From: a virus
Length of the DNA stretch: 64,000 bases
Virus record (IMG/VR): IMGVR_UViG_3300042868_007959
Location: 124,001-188,000 of that record
Reading direction: 5' to 3' (one strand)
A program made the position numbers and the translations under genes. The notes beneath the pieces were generated by a model that saw only the letters and a list, made by a program, of their open reading frames with translations, did no database searches and was not told where the DNA came from. Positions 1,250 to 62,109 of the stretch are shown here, one piece after another (positions within the stretch are counted from its first letter, which is position 1; each line of letters starts with the position of its first letter).

Positions 1250-1258
1250 AATAAATAT
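1250..1258 (-). promoter_or_regulatory. Putative late promoter motif ATATTTATT
   Basis: The minus strand reads ATATTTATT, 11 bases before the ATG at 1238 and just past the sigma-gene terminator. It belongs to the recurrent motif seen before many virion genes in this window. Confidence 0.4.
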
Positions 1259-1283: not shown

Positions 1284-1310
1284 AGAAAAAAAATGGGGGA
1301 TAATCCCCCA
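1284..1310 (-). terminator. Rho-independent terminator after sigma factor gene
   Basis: On the minus strand a seven-pair GC-rich stem (TGGGGGA pairing with TCCCCCA, 1294-1310) with a three-base loop is followed by about nine T. It begins four bases past the sigma-factor stop codon. It is a textbook intrinsic terminator and closes the UVR-protein and sigma unit. Confidence 0.92.
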
Positions 1311-1313
1311 AAT

Positions 1314-2111
1314 TTATATGTTAAATATTCCACCCATATTATTCCTAATTTTTCTGATGGCACCCTCTTTTATTTGTCTGACTCTTTCTTTTGTAAGTCC
1401 TACCTCATCTCCTATCATTTCCAGTGTCATAGGTTCACCATTAATACCGTAATAACAATTAATTATCTCAATCTCTCTAGCGGATAAACCTCTAATTATT
1501 CGATTCATTTCTTTAGCTTTAAGATATTCTTCTTCCTCAGTGAAAATGTCTGGTCTTTTAAAGAAATTATCTTCTAATAGATTAATCATTTCTTCACCAT
1601 CCTCATTAATAGTCATATTATATGATATACAAATAGGTGTAGATATTTGTTCTACTTCATCATTTTGAGGATTTCTTTGGTTTTCTTTTTCAAAAGATTC
1701 TATTTGTTTCTTTATTTTAGATAGTTTATTTATAATATTACCTGGTAATCTAACAGTTCTAGAATTATCATTCAAAGATTGTAATATAGATTGTTTAATC
1801 CACCATATCGCATATGATATAAATCTGAAACCTTTAGTATGATCAAATCTTTTTGCTGCCGTAATTAATCCATAATTACCTTCAGAAATTAAATCTGCAA
1901 TTGGTAATCCTTGATTTTGGTATTCCTTAGCCACTTTAATAACAAATCTTAAATTTGCCTTAACTAATTGGTTTAGGGCATTTTGATCCCCATCTTTAAT
2001 TCTCTTTGCTAAACTAACTTCCTCATCTATTGTTAAGATATCTGTTTTTCTAACGTCTTTTAGGTATAGGTTTAATGAATCTTCTGTTAAGTCAATATAT
2101 TTATTTGTCAT
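1314..2111 (-). CDS. RNA polymerase sigma-70 family factor, Bacteroidetes RpoD-like
   Basis: This 265-residue protein aligns by eye with primary sigma factors over its length. Region 1.2 covers about residues 8-35, region 2.1 about 49-69 (LVKANLRFVIKVAKEYQNQG), and regions 2.3-2.4 about 87-110, with the FISYAIWWIKQSI core-melting segment and following RTVRLP. The region 4.2 helix-turn-helix is at about 229-256 (GLTKERVRQIKEGAIRKI). Region 1.1 is absent, as in Bacteroidetes RpoD. It is much closer to a host primary sigma than to T4 gp55. It should bind host core polymerase and redirect it to phage promoters. It shares a unit with the UVR-motif gene and ends at a strong terminator. Confidence 0.95.
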   Translation of the reverse strand: MTNKYIDLTEDSLNLYLKDVRKTDILTIDEEVSLAKRIKDGDQNALNQLVKANLRFVIKVAKEYQNQGLPIADLISEGNYGLITAAKRFDHTKGFRFISYAIWWIKQSILQSLNDNSRTVRLPGNIINKLSKIKKQIESFEKENQRNPQNDEVEQISTPICISYNMTINEDGEEMINLLEDNFFKRPDIFTEEEEYLKAKEMNRIIRGLSAREIEIINCYYGINGEPMTLEMIGDEVGLTKERVRQIKEGAIRKIRNNMGGIFNI

Positions 2112-2134
2112 AAGTAAACTTTGTTTTTTATTTG

Positions 2135-2626
2135 TTATTTATTTTTTATTTGATCCCTTAATTTTGCGGCAGTTTCGTAATCTTCTTTATCCAATGCTTC
2201 TTTTAATTCTTCTTCTATACTTTTTTCAGTAAAACCTTTAAAACCATAATCTGTAATCTCATCAAAAATCCCATTCTTAATGTTTTTTAAAGTCTCTTGT
2301 ATTTGTTCAAAGGGTAGTATATTAAGTTGTTTACCAAATAACGCCTCCTCAAAACTCTTATCTTCTAAATTCGCTGCGTAAAACCCAGGTGTCATCTCAA
2401 ATACAATATACGATTTCTTACCCATATCTAGTAACTCTTTTATCTCTAATAGATTGAAGCTACTTTTAAATGTGGCAATTATTAATCCTGATCCACTAAC
2501 AAAATTAACATTAGTTTCTGAAATAATAGTTAAATCCTCCTTTAACTCCTCTATACTATTGAGTCCTACAACACAATAAGTTTTTAAAAAATTTCTTTCC
2601 ATATCTACAACATTAAATATCAACAA
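2135..2626 (-). CDS. UVR-motif protein encoded upstream of sigma factor
   Basis: This 163-residue protein has an unrecognised N-terminal domain and a C-terminal UVR motif at about residues 135-160 (KEALDKEDYETAAKLRDQIK), the helical hairpin found in UvrB, UvrC, McsA and ClpC. In those families it mediates protein-protein contact. There is no nuclease or helicase domain, so it is not UvrB or UvrC. The start could also be the ATG at 2602 (MERNFL), which leaves a longer leader from the promoter at 2653-2682. It lies 23 bases before the sigma gene in the same unit, so a role beside sigma or the Clp machinery is possible but inferred. Confidence 0.85.
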   Translation of the reverse strand: MLIFNVVDMERNFLKTYCVVGLNSIEELKEDLTIISETNVNFVSGSGLIIATFKSSFNLLEIKELLDMGKKSYIVFEMTPGFYAANLEDKSFEEALFGKQLNILPFEQIQETLKNIKNGIFDEITDYGFKGFTEKSIEEELKEALDKEDYETAAKLRDQIKNK

Positions 2627-2652
2627 AAATCATACACATTATTTTATAGTGA

Positions 2653-2682
2653 CAAATATAACAATTTCTATTTGATTTGCAA
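2653..2682 (-). promoter_or_regulatory. Host-type (Bacteroidetes) promoter for UVR protein and sigma factor
   Basis: The minus strand reads TTG (2682-2680), 19 bases, then TATATTTG (2660-2653), matching TTG-N19-TAnnTTTG. It overlaps the 3' end of the gp46-like gene. Transcription should start near 2649, which gives a leader of about 23 bases to ATG 2626 or 47 bases to ATG 2602. Confidence 0.75.
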
Positions 2683-5040
2683 AGTAGAAATGTCATTTAT
2701 TTTTTCTACTGTAACAATTTTGTCAGCCCAGTCCTGAACTATGGGGTTATGACTGATTAATAAAATAGTGTCATACATCTTTTTAATCTTATCAAAAAAT
2801 ATTTTAACTAAATCCAAATTAGTATTTGCTACTTTACCTAGTACTTCATCAAACACTATCACATTTGGTTTTGGTAATGTGGATATCCTACCTAAAACTG
2901 ACCTCAGAGCTAAGGATGCTAAAGTAGTTTCTAAACCAGATCCTGTTCTTAATTTTTTAATGACATCATTTTTTATTAAAAGAAAATCTACTTCATTTTT
3001 ATCATTTATTTCTAACTGAACCTCAAAATCACAAACTTCATCTAATAATCTAGTTAATTCATAGTTGATAATTGGTATTACTGAGGATAAGACTAATTTC
3101 GATATCCCATTTTTACCTATCATTTTTGAGTACACCTCAAATATTTTAAGAACATCCTCTTCTTTTTTTATTTGACTGATTATGTTTTTATTTTCCTCAA
3201 TAGTATTATTTTTTAAAGATATATCATTCTCTAAAGATTGTATTTTATTTTTAGAATTATCTTTTTCCGCTTCTAAAGTCTCTATTAATTGATTATAACC
3301 TAATATCGTACTTTCTAATTTTCTATTCTCCTCAATAAAAGTAGAGTTCTTTTCATAATCTTTTAATAGATTATTTTTTTCTTTATAATCTACTCTCATT
3401 TTATCTATTTCGATGTCTGTTTTATCTTTAGACATACTTAATCTATCATATAAATCTGAATTCTTCTTCTCTTCAGAAATATCAGTTAAATTACTTTGGA
3501 TTTTTTTTAGGGACGTACTACTTTTTTCTAAATCTATTTTTATACCTTCTAAAATTTTTTCATTTTCTTTAATTTCAGAAGTGTGATCAACATCCTCCAA
3601 AGATCTTTTACAGGTTGGGCATATCTCACCTTCTTTTAAATTTAATATAGTTTTTTCAAGATTTTTAATTTCTATCTCTATATTATTTTTTTCTAACATT
3701 AATTTTTTCTCTTCATCTCTTAGATTATCATGTGTTTGTTCATCATAAGAAAATTTAGGTAATTCTTTAATACTTTCTTTTATCTCATCTAATTTTTTAT
3801 TGAGTAGTGTACCAGTATTAGTTAACTTCTCCAGTTCTATTTTTAATGTATCAGGGTTAACTTTAATTATATCATCGTCAATAATATACCTTTTACCTAA
3901 TAACTCTTCTTTTTTAGTGACTGACTCTTTAATTTTATCTAATGTCTTTGTTAAAGAATTTTGACTTTCTTTTATTTCTATTCTACTCTCACCAATTATT
4001 CTATTAAATTCTTCATTATCAATTTCTAATTGTTTAGTATTATATAAGTTAGATTTCATCTTACTTTTAAATTCGGACATTAAAGTTTTATTAATATCTT
4101 CTTTTTTCTCAATAATTTCTAAACCAATAAATTTAGTTAATAATCTACCTCTTTGTGTGGGTTTAGTTTCTATTAAATCCTCCAAATTTTTTGAGGTTGC
4201 AACTATAGTCAACATAAAGTCATCATAAGAACCTATAGTTTCTACAATTAATTTATCAGTTTCTCTCCTTTGTTCACCCTCTAAATTTTCTTTAGTACCA
4301 TCAGATAATATCTTATAGAAATCAAGTGTTGACGCAACTTTATATTCACCACTTTTAGATAACTTTCTACTTAATCCCCTTTCGATAATATACTCATCCC
4401 CGTCAATTTCAATATGTCCACCAACAGTTACGTTATCCTCTTCACTAAACGTATTAAATATCTCAGAGGTTACTTCTGTCTTAGTAGTTTTCCCAAAAAA
4501 TAAAAATAATAAAGAATCTATTGTAAAAATAGTCTTACCTCCTTGATTTGATGGTATTGAATTGACTACAGTTAACCCGTTTAAACTTTTATAAGTAATT
4601 TCGTTGTTTCTACCAAAAGATAAAAAATTATCTAACCATATTTTTTTAATACTCCATCTTCTATATCTTACATCTTCTTCTTCGCTATTAACTAATACCT
4701 CATTTACTTTATCATCTAACCTACATAACCTATCATATTCAATATTTACCTCATTTAACTTTAACCATTCAACAAATAAAGTTCTCTGATAGGCGGTATC
4801 CATTATATTATCTATTAACCCATCTGTTATGTCAATAACTTTACCTGCAGTATTTTTGAAAATAGGGATAAAATTAATTTTTATTAACCCTTTAGGGATA
4901 TTATATTTTTCAGAAAAATATGTTTTAACAGTATTAACTGTTTCCAATGTTCTTTCTTCTGGATAACCTTTCCAGTCTATCCTTATTTGTGCCTTTTCAG
5001 GTAAGATTATTTTATTTTGAGTATCTGCTATTGTATTCAT
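2668..5040 (-). CDS. 46: Recombination endonuclease subunit gp46 (SbcC/Rad50-like) with N-terminal extension
   Basis: This 790-residue SMC-type ATPase pairs with gp47 to process DNA ends for recombination-dependent replication. The ATPase begins near residue 130, with a Walker A at about 161-170 (SNQGGKT). Long coiled coils flank a CPTC zinc hook near 475. The signature-like TGSGLETTLASLAL, a Walker B in VIVFDEVLG and an H-loop in LLISHNP follow near the C-terminus. The first 128 or so residues, before the usual ATPase start, form an extra domain I do not recognise, and T4 gp46 is only 560 residues. It follows the coiled-coil gene by one base and belongs to the unit that starts with gp47. Confidence 0.93.
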   Translation of the reverse strand: MNTIADTQNKIILPEKAQIRIDWKGYPEERTLETVNTVKTYFSEKYNIPKGLIKINFIPIFKNTAGKVIDITDGLIDNIMDTAYQRTLFVEWLKLNEVNIEYDRLCRLDDKVNEVLVNSEEEDVRYRRWSIKKIWLDNFLSFGRNNEITYKSLNGLTVVNSIPSNQGGKTIFTIDSLLFLFFGKTTKTEVTSEIFNTFSEEDNVTVGGHIEIDGDEYIIERGLSRKLSKSGEYKVASTLDFYKILSDGTKENLEGEQRRETDKLIVETIGSYDDFMLTIVATSKNLEDLIETKPTQRGRLLTKFIGLEIIEKKEDINKTLMSEFKSKMKSNLYNTKQLEIDNEEFNRIIGESRIEIKESQNSLTKTLDKIKESVTKKEELLGKRYIIDDDIIKVNPDTLKIELEKLTNTGTLLNKKLDEIKESIKELPKFSYDEQTHDNLRDEEKKLMLEKNNIEIEIKNLEKTILNLKEGEICPTCKRSLEDVDHTSEIKENEKILEGIKIDLEKSSTSLKKIQSNLTDISEEKKNSDLYDRLSMSKDKTDIEIDKMRVDYKEKNNLLKDYEKNSTFIEENRKLESTILGYNQLIETLEAEKDNSKNKIQSLENDISLKNNTIEENKNIISQIKKEEDVLKIFEVYSKMIGKNGISKLVLSSVIPIINYELTRLLDEVCDFEVQLEINDKNEVDFLLIKNDVIKKLRTGSGLETTLASLALRSVLGRISTLPKPNVIVFDEVLGKVANTNLDLVKIFFDKIKKMYDTILLISHNPIVQDWADKIVTVEKINDISTLQIK

Positions 5041-6379: not shown

Positions 6380-6409
6380 CAAATATAACAATTTTATTTA
6401 TTAATACAA
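6380..6409 (-). promoter_or_regulatory. Host-type promoter for gp47/coiled-coil/gp46 unit
   Basis: The minus strand reads TTG (6409-6407), 19 bases, then TATATTTG (6387-6380). The element ends only four bases before the gp47 ATG (6375), so transcription should begin at or within a base or two of the start codon. Confidence 0.72.
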
Positions 6410-7384: not shown

Positions 7385-7816
7385 ATGAATAAAAAAATAT
7401 TATACAGATTAATTTTACTTCTTAATGATTCATTTGGAGAATATTCCGTAGATGAATATTATAGTGATAGACATACTTATATGACAGTTTCCGAATTCAT
7501 ACAAAATGATTTAGGTTTTAGTGACTCAGATGAAGTAGATTTTATTTACGCATCTTTTTATGAGACATTAAAAAAATTAAATGGAGATTTATCAAATTTT
7601 AGTGAAAACGATGTAGTATTACCAATAAAATATGAATTTCGTGGTGAAAGAAGTTATTTTGCCACAGTCCGATATAACGAAAGTTTCTATTATGACACAT
7701 ACCTACCAGTTATATTAGAATATATGATAGATGAATATATGATAAATGAAGACAATGTTGAAACAGATATTAGAGATACTTGGGATCATGAAACAGAAAT
7801 AGTAAAAGTAAAATAA
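7385..7816 (+). CDS. Hypothetical acidic protein
   Basis: This 143-residue protein is rich in Tyr, Asp and Glu, with no signal peptide or membrane segment. I do not recognise it. It is the first of three plus-strand genes that interrupt the minus-strand replication block. Its stop codon overlaps the next ATG by one base (TAATG), so the two are probably translationally coupled. The switch of strand and the lack of known relatives mark this as an accessory insertion. Confidence 0.75.
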   Translation: MNKKILYRLILLLNDSFGEYSVDEYYSDRHTYMTVSEFIQNDLGFSDSDEVDFIYASFYETLKKLNGDLSNFSENDVVLPIKYEFRGERSYFATVRYNESFYYDTYLPVILEYMIDEYMINEDNVETDIRDTWDHETEIVKVK

Positions 7817-10600: not shown

Positions 10601-10608
10601 CAAAGATA
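10601..10608 (-). promoter_or_regulatory. Possible host-type -7 element before primase
   Basis: The minus strand reads TATCTTTG, matching TAnnTTTG, six bases before the primase ATG. No TTG lies at the expected 17-23 bases upstream, so only half of the promoter pattern is present. Confidence 0.4.
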
Positions 10609-14912: not shown

Positions 14913-14921
14913 AATAAATAT
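14913..14921 (-). promoter_or_regulatory. Putative late promoter motif ATATTTATT
   Basis: The minus strand reads ATATTTATT in the spacer between the 968- and 747-residue structural genes, 15 bases before ATG 14897. Confidence 0.45.
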
Positions 14922-17876: not shown

Positions 17877-17885
17877 AATAAATAT
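17877..17885 (-). promoter_or_regulatory. Putative late promoter motif ATATTTATT
   Basis: The minus strand reads ATATTTATTAATA, 33 bases before ATG 17843, in the 59-base spacer after the giant structural gene. Confidence 0.45.
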
Positions 17886-27976: not shown

Positions 27977-27985
27977 AATAAATAT
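27977..27985 (-). promoter_or_regulatory. Putative late promoter motif ATATTTATT
   Basis: The minus strand reads ATATTTATTAATAGT directly before ATG 27970, six bases away. If this is a -10 type element the message would be leaderless or nearly so. Confidence 0.4.
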
Positions 27986-37691: not shown

Positions 37692-37700
37692 TATAAATAT
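37692..37700 (-). promoter_or_regulatory. Putative late promoter motif ATATTTATA
   Basis: The minus strand reads ATATTTATATAC five bases before the gp25-like ATG (37686). It is a candidate driver of the gp25-gp6 unit. Confidence 0.42.
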
Positions 37701-40318: not shown

Positions 40319-40519
40319 TTTTGTATTACCTTTTTCATATTTTGGTTCAAACGGACAATGTTTACATCCGTTACCACAACATGATTTTCTATTTAAGTGG
40401 TATGATTCAGTCAATACCATTTTACCATCTTCCCAATAGAAGTCAGTAGGTTGTAATTTAGGTCCAAATTCCCTAACATATAATTGTTGTATCCAATCTT
40501 TTGATGCCCCTACATTCAT
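40295..40519 (-). CDS. DUF5522 family small Cys-rich protein
   Basis: This 74-residue protein has the family signature in FYWEDGKMVLTESYHLNR and the metal-binding-type cluster SC47-C48-GNGC52-KHC55-PF. DUF5522 proteins are small, likely zinc-binding and common in Bacteroidetes genomes; their function is unknown. Presence in a phage suggests capture from a host. It is read into the bidirectional terminator, and a 13-base perfect inverted repeat lies 23 bases upstream of its ATG. Confidence 0.85.
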   Translation of the reverse strand: MNVGASKDWIQQLYVREFGPKLQPTDFYWEDGKMVLTESYHLNRKSCCGNGCKHCPFEPKYEKGNTKIRKSLQS

Positions 40520-40542
40520 AATTAATTATTTTTTCTTATATT

Positions 40543-40580
40543 ATATAACGCTAACAGTACTTGATGTGTTAGCGTTATAT
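40543..40580. repeat. Perfect 13-base inverted repeat
   Basis: ATATAACGCTAAC (40543-40555) and its exact reverse complement GTTAGCGTTATAT (40568-40580) flank a 12-base spacer. It lies between the ribonucleotide reductase stop and the DUF5522 start. Neither side has a clear T run, so it is not a typical terminator. It could be an operator, a processing site or a structured leader. Confidence 0.85.
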
Positions 40581-40605
40581 CATTACCCCATTTTACTTTC
40601 ATATC

Positions 40606-42465
40606 TTATATAATTTCACAAGCTCCTCCAGCACAAGCAACTTCACCAGAAAGATTAGTATTATCTTGTAACTCAATTACCTTTGTTAAATCGACAGAAG
40701 TTAATGATTTCAATAATGTATCGTAAGTTTCTATTGTACAATCTTCAAATGGTGCCTGTTGGTAAGTACCTCCATTGTATGGTAAAACAGATAATCCATT
40801 ATATGATTTCCTATTTGTCCACATCCATTCACCAGCTAATTCCCAATCTTCCTCTTTTAAAGATATTGTTGCAGATACATTATGACTATTTTGTCCACCT
40901 CTATGTCCTGGTTTAATCCATTCTTGTGATACTTTTTTAACTCTATCCAATAAATCAAAAGGTGATTCATATCTTAAAATTGATCCTTCTGGTGATTTTT
41001 GTGGGATAGAAATAACTGCGGTATCATGCGGTCTAAAAATTTCATCCTCAACTAATTCTGGATGATTTACCGATAGGTATGTATAGATTGCCTCATTTTT
41101 ACCAACTCTAATTCTTCTAACATAATAATCATTATGCCAAGCATGAATACCAGAAGAAGTTCCTAAAACTAATGATGAGGTACCTGATGGTTTAACTGTT
41201 GTAGTTCTAGCTGCCGAATTAATCCCAATTAATTTTGCGACTCTAGAATTCTCTTCTTTAACTGCGTTAGCGGCAGCTTTCATATCATAACCTAAAACTA
41301 CACCTGATCCTATTCCTGTCATTCCAACACCTATTAAGGCATCTTTTTCTGTAGTTCTTTTCCAAACATCTCTTAAATAATGGAAGTCAGTATATCCTGC
41401 CTGAAGTGTTCCAATAAATGCTGCCCCTTTAACTCTTTTTTCAAAATCTTCTTGTGATTCTATATCCGATGCGTTTACCTCACATAGATTACAGAACTGA
41501 TATGGTCTCAAACCTATTTCACAACATGGATTTGTTCCCCAATCTTTATCATTTGAAAAGTAGATTCCTGGTTCGCCAGCACCACTCAATTCAATTCTTT
41601 TCCATAAATCTAAAAAGAATTCTTTAGTAACTTTATGTCTTAATAAAACTGCTGAATTATTAGCTCTACCTCTTTGTGGATTTAATTCCCACCAATTACC
41701 TGATTTACAAGAAATCATTTCGTTATCATCTGCAGAAAATAAACTTATTAATGCTGCTCTACGAATACCACCTGCCAAAACTGCATCTGCAATATGACAA
41801 ACAATATCATGAACTTCAATCGCAGTAAGTTTATCACCATCATTTTTAGAATCTAATACTTTTTTAATATTGTGTATACAATCTTTTAATGGTTGAGGAC
41901 CTGGAGCTTTACCACCAGAAGTTACTAATAACGCACCCTTATGTCTGATGTCAGAAAAATCAAATGTCGGTGTTGATGACTTAACACCTAAATATGATTC
42001 AACCAAAAGTTTAATTGCGTCTGCCCATCCCTCAATAGAATCACTGATTAGATACCTTCTTTTTCTATCGGGATTAGGTTTTCTAATTTCAGGTAATTTT
42101 TCAACATGATGTTTTTGTACTGAATATCCTACTCCAGTTCCACCTAATAAAAGGAACATAGTTTCAGAAAACGCATCAACATGATCAATAGGTAAATATG
42201 CACAATTATATACCCTATTTGGAGAAATTTCAATAGGCTTACCTCCAAATTGTAAACTTCTCATTGAAGGTAAAATCTTTTTATCATAAACTAATTCATA
42301 TACTTCCTCAATATCATCTTTAATATGAGGATATTTTTTTTGGTGCATTTCTTTATTTCTAGTAACCAATTCTTCCCATGTTTCTCTTCTGTTTTTTTCA
42401 GGTAGATACTTGGCGTATTTCATGTAAACAGTAATGTCGGATAAAATCCTATTTGTTAATTCCAT
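40606..42465 (-). CDS. nrdJ: Class II (adenosylcobalamin-dependent) ribonucleoside-triphosphate reductase
   Basis: This 619-residue enzyme makes deoxynucleotides for phage DNA synthesis. Visible motifs include SMRSLQFGGKPI near residue 65, NPCCEI at about 307-312 holding the thiyl-radical Cys and catalytic Glu, and PSGTSSLVLG in the barrel. A C-terminal redox pair C611-AGGA-C616 resembles the tail Cys pair of monomeric Lactobacillus-type RTPR. There is no NrdB partner, and T4 uses class I instead. The enzyme needs B12 from the host or environment. It lies between the helicase and DUF5522 genes. Confidence 0.93.
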   Translation of the reverse strand: MELTNRILSDITVYMKYAKYLPEKNRRETWEELVTRNKEMHQKKYPHIKDDIEEVYELVYDKKILPSMRSLQFGGKPIEISPNRVYNCAYLPIDHVDAFSETMFLLLGGTGVGYSVQKHHVEKLPEIRKPNPDRKRRYLISDSIEGWADAIKLLVESYLGVKSSTPTFDFSDIRHKGALLVTSGGKAPGPQPLKDCIHNIKKVLDSKNDGDKLTAIEVHDIVCHIADAVLAGGIRRAALISLFSADDNEMISCKSGNWWELNPQRGRANNSAVLLRHKVTKEFFLDLWKRIELSGAGEPGIYFSNDKDWGTNPCCEIGLRPYQFCNLCEVNASDIESQEDFEKRVKGAAFIGTLQAGYTDFHYLRDVWKRTTEKDALIGVGMTGIGSGVVLGYDMKAAANAVKEENSRVAKLIGINSAARTTTVKPSGTSSLVLGTSSGIHAWHNDYYVRRIRVGKNEAIYTYLSVNHPELVEDEIFRPHDTAVISIPQKSPEGSILRYESPFDLLDRVKKVSQEWIKPGHRGGQNSHNVSATISLKEEDWELAGEWMWTNRKSYNGLSVLPYNGGTYQQAPFEDCTIETYDTLLKSLTSVDLTKVIELQDNTNLSGEVACAGGACEII

Positions 42466-43952: not shown

Positions 43953-44459
43953 TTAGATTTGTTTATTAATAAATATATGACTTAACTCATAACCGCAGTA
44001 ATTTTTTGTATAATTTTTTTGCCCCATTCCTATTTGGATAGTATCGATGATTTTTGGAATTATTTTTCTTATGTCCACATCATATCTTACTTTAGGTGGG
44101 AAATCATTTCCAGTGAAAATCTTCTCAATTATTACTTTACCATCTAACTTAATTTGGAAGGTGAAGAAGTCTTCATTTTCATATATATCTTTTACCTCTG
44201 TATTTTCATCACTATTCTCCACAAAATAATTGTAATACTTATAAAGGTATTCATATGTATTATTTTTGAAGTGTAATTTAATTACATCAACAACATCGTC
44301 TATAATATCTCTCAACTCTATCGAATTAACACAATCTCTGTTAAAATTTTTGATTGGGAAATTTCTACCTACTATTGGATTCCCATTAATCATAAACAAA
44401 AATTCATATGGGTAACTTTGATAACTCTTTTTCGTAACTGCATTCATAACTGTATTCAT
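43953..44459 (-). CDS. Hypothetical protein between helicase and FEN nuclease
   Basis: This 168-residue protein has an internal near-duplication in design: YEFLFMINGNPIVGRNFPIKNF and FTFQIKLDGKVIIEKIFTGNDF have the same strand-loop pattern about 80 residues apart. This suggests two copies of a small beta-rich domain. Its ATG overlaps the FEN gene stop by four bases (ATGA), so it is coupled to replication genes. It could be a helicase loader or regulator by position, but there is no sequence evidence for that. Confidence 0.75.
   Translation of the reverse strand: MNTVMNAVTKKSYQSYPYEFLFMINGNPIVGRNFPIKNFNRDCVNSIELRDIIDDVVDVIKLHFKNNTYEYLYKYYNYFVENSDENTEVKDIYENEDFFTFQIKLDGKVIIEKIFTGNDFPPKVRYDVDIRKIIPKIIDTIQIGMGQKNYTKNYCGYELSHIFINKQI
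43968..43976 (-). promoter_or_regulatory. ATATTTATT motif upstream of helicase
   Basis: The minus strand reads ATATTTATTAATAAAC, 23 bases before ATG 43944. It lies inside the coding end of the preceding gene and before a replication gene, so it may be a chance match or show that the motif is not restricted to virion genes. Confidence 0.25.
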
Positions 44460-47523: not shown

Positions 47524-47554
47524 CAAATATACTCATTTTTTATCCGAAAGTCAA
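47524..47554 (-). promoter_or_regulatory. Host-type promoter for gp32/uvsX/FEN run
   Basis: The minus strand reads TTG (47554-47552), 20 bases, then TATATTTG (47531-47524). Transcription should start near 47520, about 25 bases before the gp32 ATG. It lies just past the terminator of the upstream unit. Confidence 0.78.
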
Positions 47555-59258: not shown

Positions 59259-59444
59259 ATATAATATATTCTTATTATATAAATATTAGGTCAATAAAAT
59301 TCAGGAAAATTAAATAGTATTATTTATATATATTCTTGTTTTTTATTAATTAAGATATAAATTAATAGTTAAATATGCAGGTCCTTGTAATAATAGGAAA
59401 TTTATTTCGTAAAGTCAATAGTAAAATGAAATAATTTTAAAAAA
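59259..59444. other. 186-base intergenic gap
   Basis: Apart from the promoter-like motif at 59278-59286 I see no gene or strong hairpin in this AT-rich gap. The only ATG frame is 19 codons on the plus strand (59375 on), and nothing supports it. Confidence 0.5.
59278..59286 (-). promoter_or_regulatory. Putative late promoter motif ATATTTATA
   Basis: The minus strand reads ATATTTATATAATAAG, 19 bases before ATG 59258, in the longest intergenic gap of the window. It is the best-placed of the late-type motifs, as the gap has no other clear function. Confidence 0.5.
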
Positions 59445-62100: not shown

Positions 62101-62109
62101 TATAAATAT
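62101..62109 (-). promoter_or_regulatory. Putative late promoter motif ATATTTATA
   Basis: The minus strand reads ATATTTATATATAAA, 14 bases before ATG 62086, in the 36-base gap after the 76-residue frame. Confidence 0.42.

Follow-up and report, generated by a model that had tools for sequence, protein, structure and literature searches.

The window analysed here is a 64,000-nucleotide stretch of DNA corresponding to bases 124,001–188,000 of a 253,879-bp virus record (G000). Several features of the record, which comes from a large phage with Bacteroidota-type hosts, are T4-like, namely gp46/gp47, a gp32-like SSB, a DnaB-type helicase, PhoH and proteins of the baseplate wedge. Downstream of gp46, on the minus strand, lies a compact transcription unit with two genes (Table 1), the first encoding a small protein that we call the partner and the second an RpoD/RpoS-like sigma factor that we name A. 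The unit promoter, TTTGCAAATCAAATAGAAATTGTTATATTTG, is a perfect Bacteroidota-type promoter that overlaps the gp46 stop codon. Its type is referred to below as class H, to distinguish it from a second class, L, with the motif ATATTTAT. The hairpin of the intrinsic terminator has a minimum free energy of –13 kcal/mol (z = –2.1), and terminator-like sites in the region number 4, compared to 0.4 expected from shuffled sequences. An earlier note on this DNA had proposed a self-contained unit in which the sigma factor is accompanied by a small UVR-motif protein, transcribed from a host-type promoter and ending at a strong terminator. All of these elements are present in the sequence, and the order gp46–partner–A is conserved in relatives.

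Table 1 Positions of the partner–A unit and of selected promoters in the window.
Feature	Position	Strand	Description
Class L promoter ATATTTAT of g2 (next gene)	1251..1258	-	kept in relatives
Intrinsic terminator TGGGGGATTATCCCCCA-T8	1294..1310	-	closes the unit
Sigma A	1314..2111	-	RpoD/RpoS-like, 265 aa; regions 1.2, 2 and 4, shortened region 3
Partner protein	2135..2602	-	155 aa; predicted ferredoxin-like N-domain and C-terminal UVR hairpin
Degenerate class L element ATATTTAA	2613..2620	-	one mismatch
Class H promoter of the partner–A unit	2653..2683	-	TTTG-N19-TATATTTG; –33 part within the gp46 3′ end
gp46 (SbcC-like)	2668..5040	-	immediately upstream of the partner–A unit
Class H –7 element TATATTTG of gp47	6380..6387	-	TTTG –33 element 19 nt upstream
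Class H-like –7 element TATCTTTG of primase	10601..10608	-	
Class L promoter	14914..14921	-	before g17
Class L promoter	17878..17885	-	before g18
Class L promoter	27978..27985	-	before g21
Class L promoter	37693..37700	-	before g27 (baseplate wedge)
Class L promoter	43969..43976	-	before g32 (DnaB-like helicase)
Class H –7 element of gp32-like SSB	47524..47531	-	
Class L promoter	59279..59286	-	28 nt before g42
Class L promoter	62102..62109	-	23 nt before g44

The partner–A unit, with its promoter, two genes and terminator, is real and conserved. Wherever gp46 and A are both present in a record, A comes after gp46. Records in which A is 61–87% identical have the order gp46, partner, A, hairpin, class L promoter and next gene, and in three further loci (L198–L200) the order gp46, partner and A is unchanged. 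Hairpins like the terminator of the unit are found 3′ of A in L007, L008, L009 and L102, and the class H promoter 5′ of the partner gene is retained in L007–L009 and L198–L200. Most relatives also have a ATATTTAT or TATTTATAATAAA element directly 5′ of the partner gene; at the position of the degenerate class L element of the window, L007, L009 and L102 carry ATATTTAT and L198–L200 carry TATTTATAATAAA. This arrangement implies that A may be produced in the late phase of transcription as well as before it. The unit in L102 has a class L promoter only.

Against Pfam, regions 1.2, 2 and 4 of A score 45.6, 64.1 and 48.6 bits, respectively, each far above its cut-off. Region 3 has no Pfam match, and alignment with host proteins reveals that it is shortened, with ~14 host-conserved columns missing between regions 3.1 and 3.2. 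The proposal that the sigma factor spans regions 1.2 to 4.2 is supported, with region 3 in shortened form. In distant A-type phage sigma factors from L016 (G010) and L015 (241 and 229 aa), region 3 is nearly all gone, and these proteins look as if the region were eroding in phage lineages. A falls below the curated equivalog cut-offs for both RpoD (RpoD_Cterm, 171.7 vs 354) and RpoS (202.7 vs 378.7), and “RpoD-like” is therefore its proper name. Its closest cellular relatives are the RpoD proteins of Bacteroidota and other FCB phyla, with a mean identity of 47% and a best of 49% across 80 FCB sequences. In a phylogenetic tree A groups with FCB RpoD, apart from the sigma factors of cyanophages, Acinetobacter and faecal phages (100/100 support); several rows of this tree have very long branches, and the tree does not settle the placement of A inside the FCB RpoDs. 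Judged by these sequence comparisons, A is a primary-type sigma factor with an FCB/Bacteroidota origin that is found in one lineage of large T4-like phages. The view of the sigma factor as host-primary-like and not of the gp55 type is thus correct for A, but a gp55-type sigma factor is also encoded in the record, as described below.

A shares with Bacteroidota RpoD a compact architecture without region 1.1, as well as almost the same promoter-contact helices. The –10 reading helix, FISYA-WWI-QSILQ, is almost identical to that of the host (regions 2.3–2.4 read FISYAIWWIKQSILQSL in A and FISYAVWWIRQSILQAL in the host), and the –35 helix in region 4.2, LTKERVRQIKE, differs from LTRERVRQIKE of the host by a single R-to-K change. 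The promoter-contact positions, which we take to be those of regions 2.4 and 4.2 from general knowledge of sigma70, are kept in A when the two proteins are aligned, the comparison that had been suggested as a check. Apart from the overall identity of only ~47%, the differences lie in region 3, in several residues near the –10 helix and in the conserved host C-tail SRSK-LK-YLG, which is replaced in A. Promoter choice by A is judged here from residue conservation, and with these differences in region 3, near the –10 helix and in the C-tail, its specificity could have shifted from that of the host.

The UVR motif of the partner (PF02151) scores 31.2 bits, above the cut-off of 21.5, and the same tail is present in L007, L008, L009 and L198–L200. 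In L010 and L102, however, the tail is instead DUF6576 (over the cut-off in L010 and just under it in L102). Since DUF6576 replaces UVR in these two relatives, the UVR motif that had given the partner its description in the earlier note is, as far as the sequences indicate, an exchangeable tail and not the defining part of the protein. The match to the McsA/Clp-regulator model NF053706 reaches 16.4 bits, compared to the 210 required, and involves the tail only. Two viral contigs, L202 and L203, encode bifunctional-nuclease-like proteins whose UVR tail closely resembles the one on the partner. The core is predicted to be ferredoxin-like (structure model, pLDDT 68). A fold search gave ACT/PII/ferredoxin-like matches, all of them weak, and nothing in the PDB at E ≤ 0.001. 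No sequence relative of the partner was found among sequenced phages.

Every full-length partner gene found sits directly before A, and its product, made together with A, most likely modulates A as either an anti-sigma factor or a co-factor. A more specific version of this idea, compatible with A acting on class H promoters, is that the partner is an anti-sigma factor that keeps A inactive until a certain signal or stage, and that A is freed by a protease or other effector recruited through the UVR or DUF6576 tail. We consider this possible but tentative. The invariable position of the gene upstream of A, a predicted core with weak matches to ACT/PII-like sensors and the exchangeable tail are all in keeping with it, but in the libraries searched the N-domain is not related in sequence to any known anti-sigma factor, the confidence of the structure model is modest, and in G010 a shorter and more divergent A follows gp46 with the partner absent.

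Promoter statistics were compiled over ~244 kb of the record with 298 predicted genes, leaving out 120,001–124,000 (~4 kb) and the last 6 kb. For 58 of the 298 genes, compared to 9.7 expected, the class L motif lies no more than 60 nt upstream, and the ratio of sense to antisense occurrences within 80 nt is 60:22. The second promoter class proposed earlier is therefore genuine. Class H, searched for as TTG-N18-21-TAnnTTTG, precedes 21 genes, compared to 0.75 expected. A –33 TTG is present at 22 of 35 class H sites and 10 of 53 class L sites (Fisher p = 4e-5). Class H corresponds to the host consensus, with some sites lacking the –33 element, whereas class L has a T-rich stretch 11–15 nt upstream and no –33 element as a class feature. 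The class L motif is approximately one base away from the host –7 element (TATATTTG vs TATATTTAT). Genes for DNA polymerase, primase, SSB, gp47, RNA ligase, NAMPT, an HNH endonuclease and a further sigma factor, B, have class H promoters, as does the A unit. Class L promoters precede genes for a baseplate protein, a head–tail adaptor and many long unassigned proteins. Two helicase genes, one of them for DnaB, have class L promoters as well, so the functional split between the classes is imperfect. A second round of motif discovery for a third promoter class gave a coding-like pattern only. We also considered whether ATATTTAT is the T4 late promoter TATAAATA on the other strand, and rejected this: ATATTTAT is what the sense strand carries 12–55 nt before the start codons, and TATAAATA stays close to background (17 occurrences upstream of genes vs 11.5 expected).

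When the entire record was searched for sigma region 2, three places were found, corresponding to A, B and C. B is an ECF sigma factor of 175 aa (G000 40,494–41,021, minus strand; L004:4495–5022) that consists of sigma2 and sigma4 only (PF04542 and PF08281) and passes the ECF model TIGR02937 with 115.7 bits vs 42.9. Its gene lies under a TATCTTTG promoter and adjoins the gene for a 664-aa secreted-type protein; no anti-sigma factor was recognised beside it. Relatives of B are found in G015 (near-identical across the ORF) and G044 (42%). Separately, several unrelated proteins of G000 have in common an N-terminal tag, such as MKNLIRKILKEE or LTEELRRMKNLM, that resembles a targeting or propeptide signal (for example at window positions 7816 (+), 8375 (+) and 37747 (–), and at 2958 and 3257 in L004).

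C, a protein of 244 aa (G000 241,722–242,456, plus strand; L005:4723–5457), matches phrog_234, “late sigma transcription factor”, with E = 3.7e-5. Three of 15 relatives of C match the gp55 family at E ≤ 0.01. Among PDB sequences T4 gp55 is the sole match to C at E ≤ 10 (E = 0.11), and a profile search, which found gp55 at E = 0.26, gave no gain over the single sequence. The top Foldseek matches to the AF2 model of C are mostly sigma factors, none of them significant. C is ~60 aa longer than T4 gp55 and has extra C-terminal helices, possibly a helix-turn-helix; because of these, we grade the gp55-like assignment as weak-to-moderate. No informative family was found among the neighbours of C, and gp33/gp45 partners were not identified in the record. 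C is widespread, with 48 loci in IMG/VR. A, B and C were seen together in this record only, while A and C are found in G010 and G012 (distant A), A and B in G044, and B and C in G015. Most of the records compared are fragments, in which the absence of A or C is not proof, and the true overlap of the three is therefore probably larger than seen. Among the 34 IMG/VR records searched, the four that reach the gp46 locus all contain A, and no complete relative with C and without A was found.

Flavobacterium phage immuto (NC_055915), whose genome is complete and which has been cultured, helps to assign the promoter classes. It encodes a homologue of C (27% identity over the alignment, 33% locally) and has (A/C)TATTTAT elements before the terminase, portal, tail sheath and tail tube genes. 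Its genome has no match to PF04542 (region 2) at E ≤ 1 and none to A at E ≤ 0.1. This combination of a similar late motif, a C homologue and no detectable A suggests that class L is most likely read by C and not by A. Furthermore, class L is present at most loci where C is ~50% identical or more, and was not found around the distant A-like sigma factors of L011–L014 and L017, records without detected C. Against this, the C homologue of immuto is only 27–33% identical, and the early promoters of immuto are different (TATATTTAGG). At ~60–76 kb in the same genome, consecutive small genes carry almost the same upstream promoter, AGTTGCC...TATATTTAGGTATCAATAATTAAAACA, which is probably a strong early class.

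The host-like contact helices suggest that, at the TAnnTTTG promoters of replication genes, A most likely takes the place of host RpoD. A would join the host core RNA polymerase and keep the TTTG-N19-TAnnTTTG promoters of the phage active, and in this way would take over from host RpoD or evade the cause of its displacement. These promoters would serve the genes for DNA polymerase, primase, SSB, gp47, RNA ligase, NAMPT and sigma B, and the A unit itself. C would switch on the class L genes, and the partner, produced together with A, would modulate A. This model as a whole appears to us about as apt to hold as to fail. The unit in L102, which has no class H promoter, also suggests that A may act later than such an early-to-middle role implies.

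Two other readings of A have been weighed against its action on class H promoters. A might not serve phage promoters in particular, and instead redirect or sustain host transcription, as in takeover or rescue during slow growth, or else read a small unseen set of promoters. Its host-like contact residues would allow it to read host promoters too, and phage sigma factors that act on host programmes are known (PMC9429907), but we regard this reading as unlikely, as divergent phages all keep the unit in the gp46 replication module and motif discovery gave no convincing third class. The earlier suggestion of a host-sigma to phage-sigma switch, in which A is the late sigma factor that reads the ATATTTAT class, appears quite improbable: A is indeed made from a class H promoter while class L serves structural genes, and a motif about one base from the host –7 element would be a small step for a captured RpoD, but the record contains a gp55-like sigma factor whose occurrence the ATATTTAT-type promoters follow, late promoters of the L type occur in immuto, where no RpoD-like sigma factor is detectable, several loci with a distant A-like sigma factor and no detected C are without class L, the class lacks the –33 element that the kept region 4.2 of A should use, and the A unit in relatives itself bears a class L promoter.

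The combination of an RpoD-like and a gp55-like sigma factor in one phage is already described. In the sections of the source available (PMC5259590), the enterobacterial phage CBB, also a T4-like jumbo phage, has a region 2–4 sigma factor, a gp55-like sigma factor and several promoter classes, among them an AT-rich late motif. That motif is the T4-like ATAAATA, however, CBB infects enterobacteria, and an ECF sigma factor and a sigma–partner operon are not mentioned for it in those sections. “Group 2” jumbo phages are likewise reported, in the available part of PMC7824862, to have minimal or complete RpoD-like sigma factors, probably derived from cells, that recruit host RNA polymerase. In that part, neither a partner gene nor a set of three sigma classes is described for a T4-like phage of Bacteroidota. 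In T4 itself, late transcription (gp55/gp33/gp45) uses a short sigma factor and an extended –10-like element without a –35, and the late promoter consensus is highly similar across the T4 family (PMC2988020). The short gp55-type sigma factor and the late element without a –35 are common to T4 and the present phage. The promoters themselves differ, being TATAAATA-like in the T4 family, whereas the sense motif here is ATATTTAT, which resembles the Bacteroidota –7 element TAnnTTTG, and C also exceeds T4 gp55 in length. In open-licence PMC papers we did not find descriptions of an ECF sigma factor as a third sigma in the same phage, of a sigma–partner operon or of a Bacteroidota –7-like late motif. 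The three-sigma set, the partner–A operon and the ATATTTAT late promoter thus appear to be new details.

These details could belong to a three-sigma cascade on Bacteroidota RNA polymerase, in which a captured RpoD (A), gated by a sensor-like partner of its own with an exchangeable tail, takes the host-type promoters, the ECF sigma factor (B) takes a further set, and the gp55-type C reads late ATATTTAT promoters instead of the TATAAATA of T4; this wider picture is speculative, and we think it rather doubtful in full. If true, the late promoters of T4-type phages would seem to take after the –10 element used in the host phylum, and whether gp55 or the core polymerase sets late-promoter choice becomes directly testable. 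As a compact unit, the sigma–partner operon is a candidate new regulator of phage sigma factors. If the assignments are true, they would also help in reading the promoters of Bacteroidota phages, for which few transcription systems are worked out.
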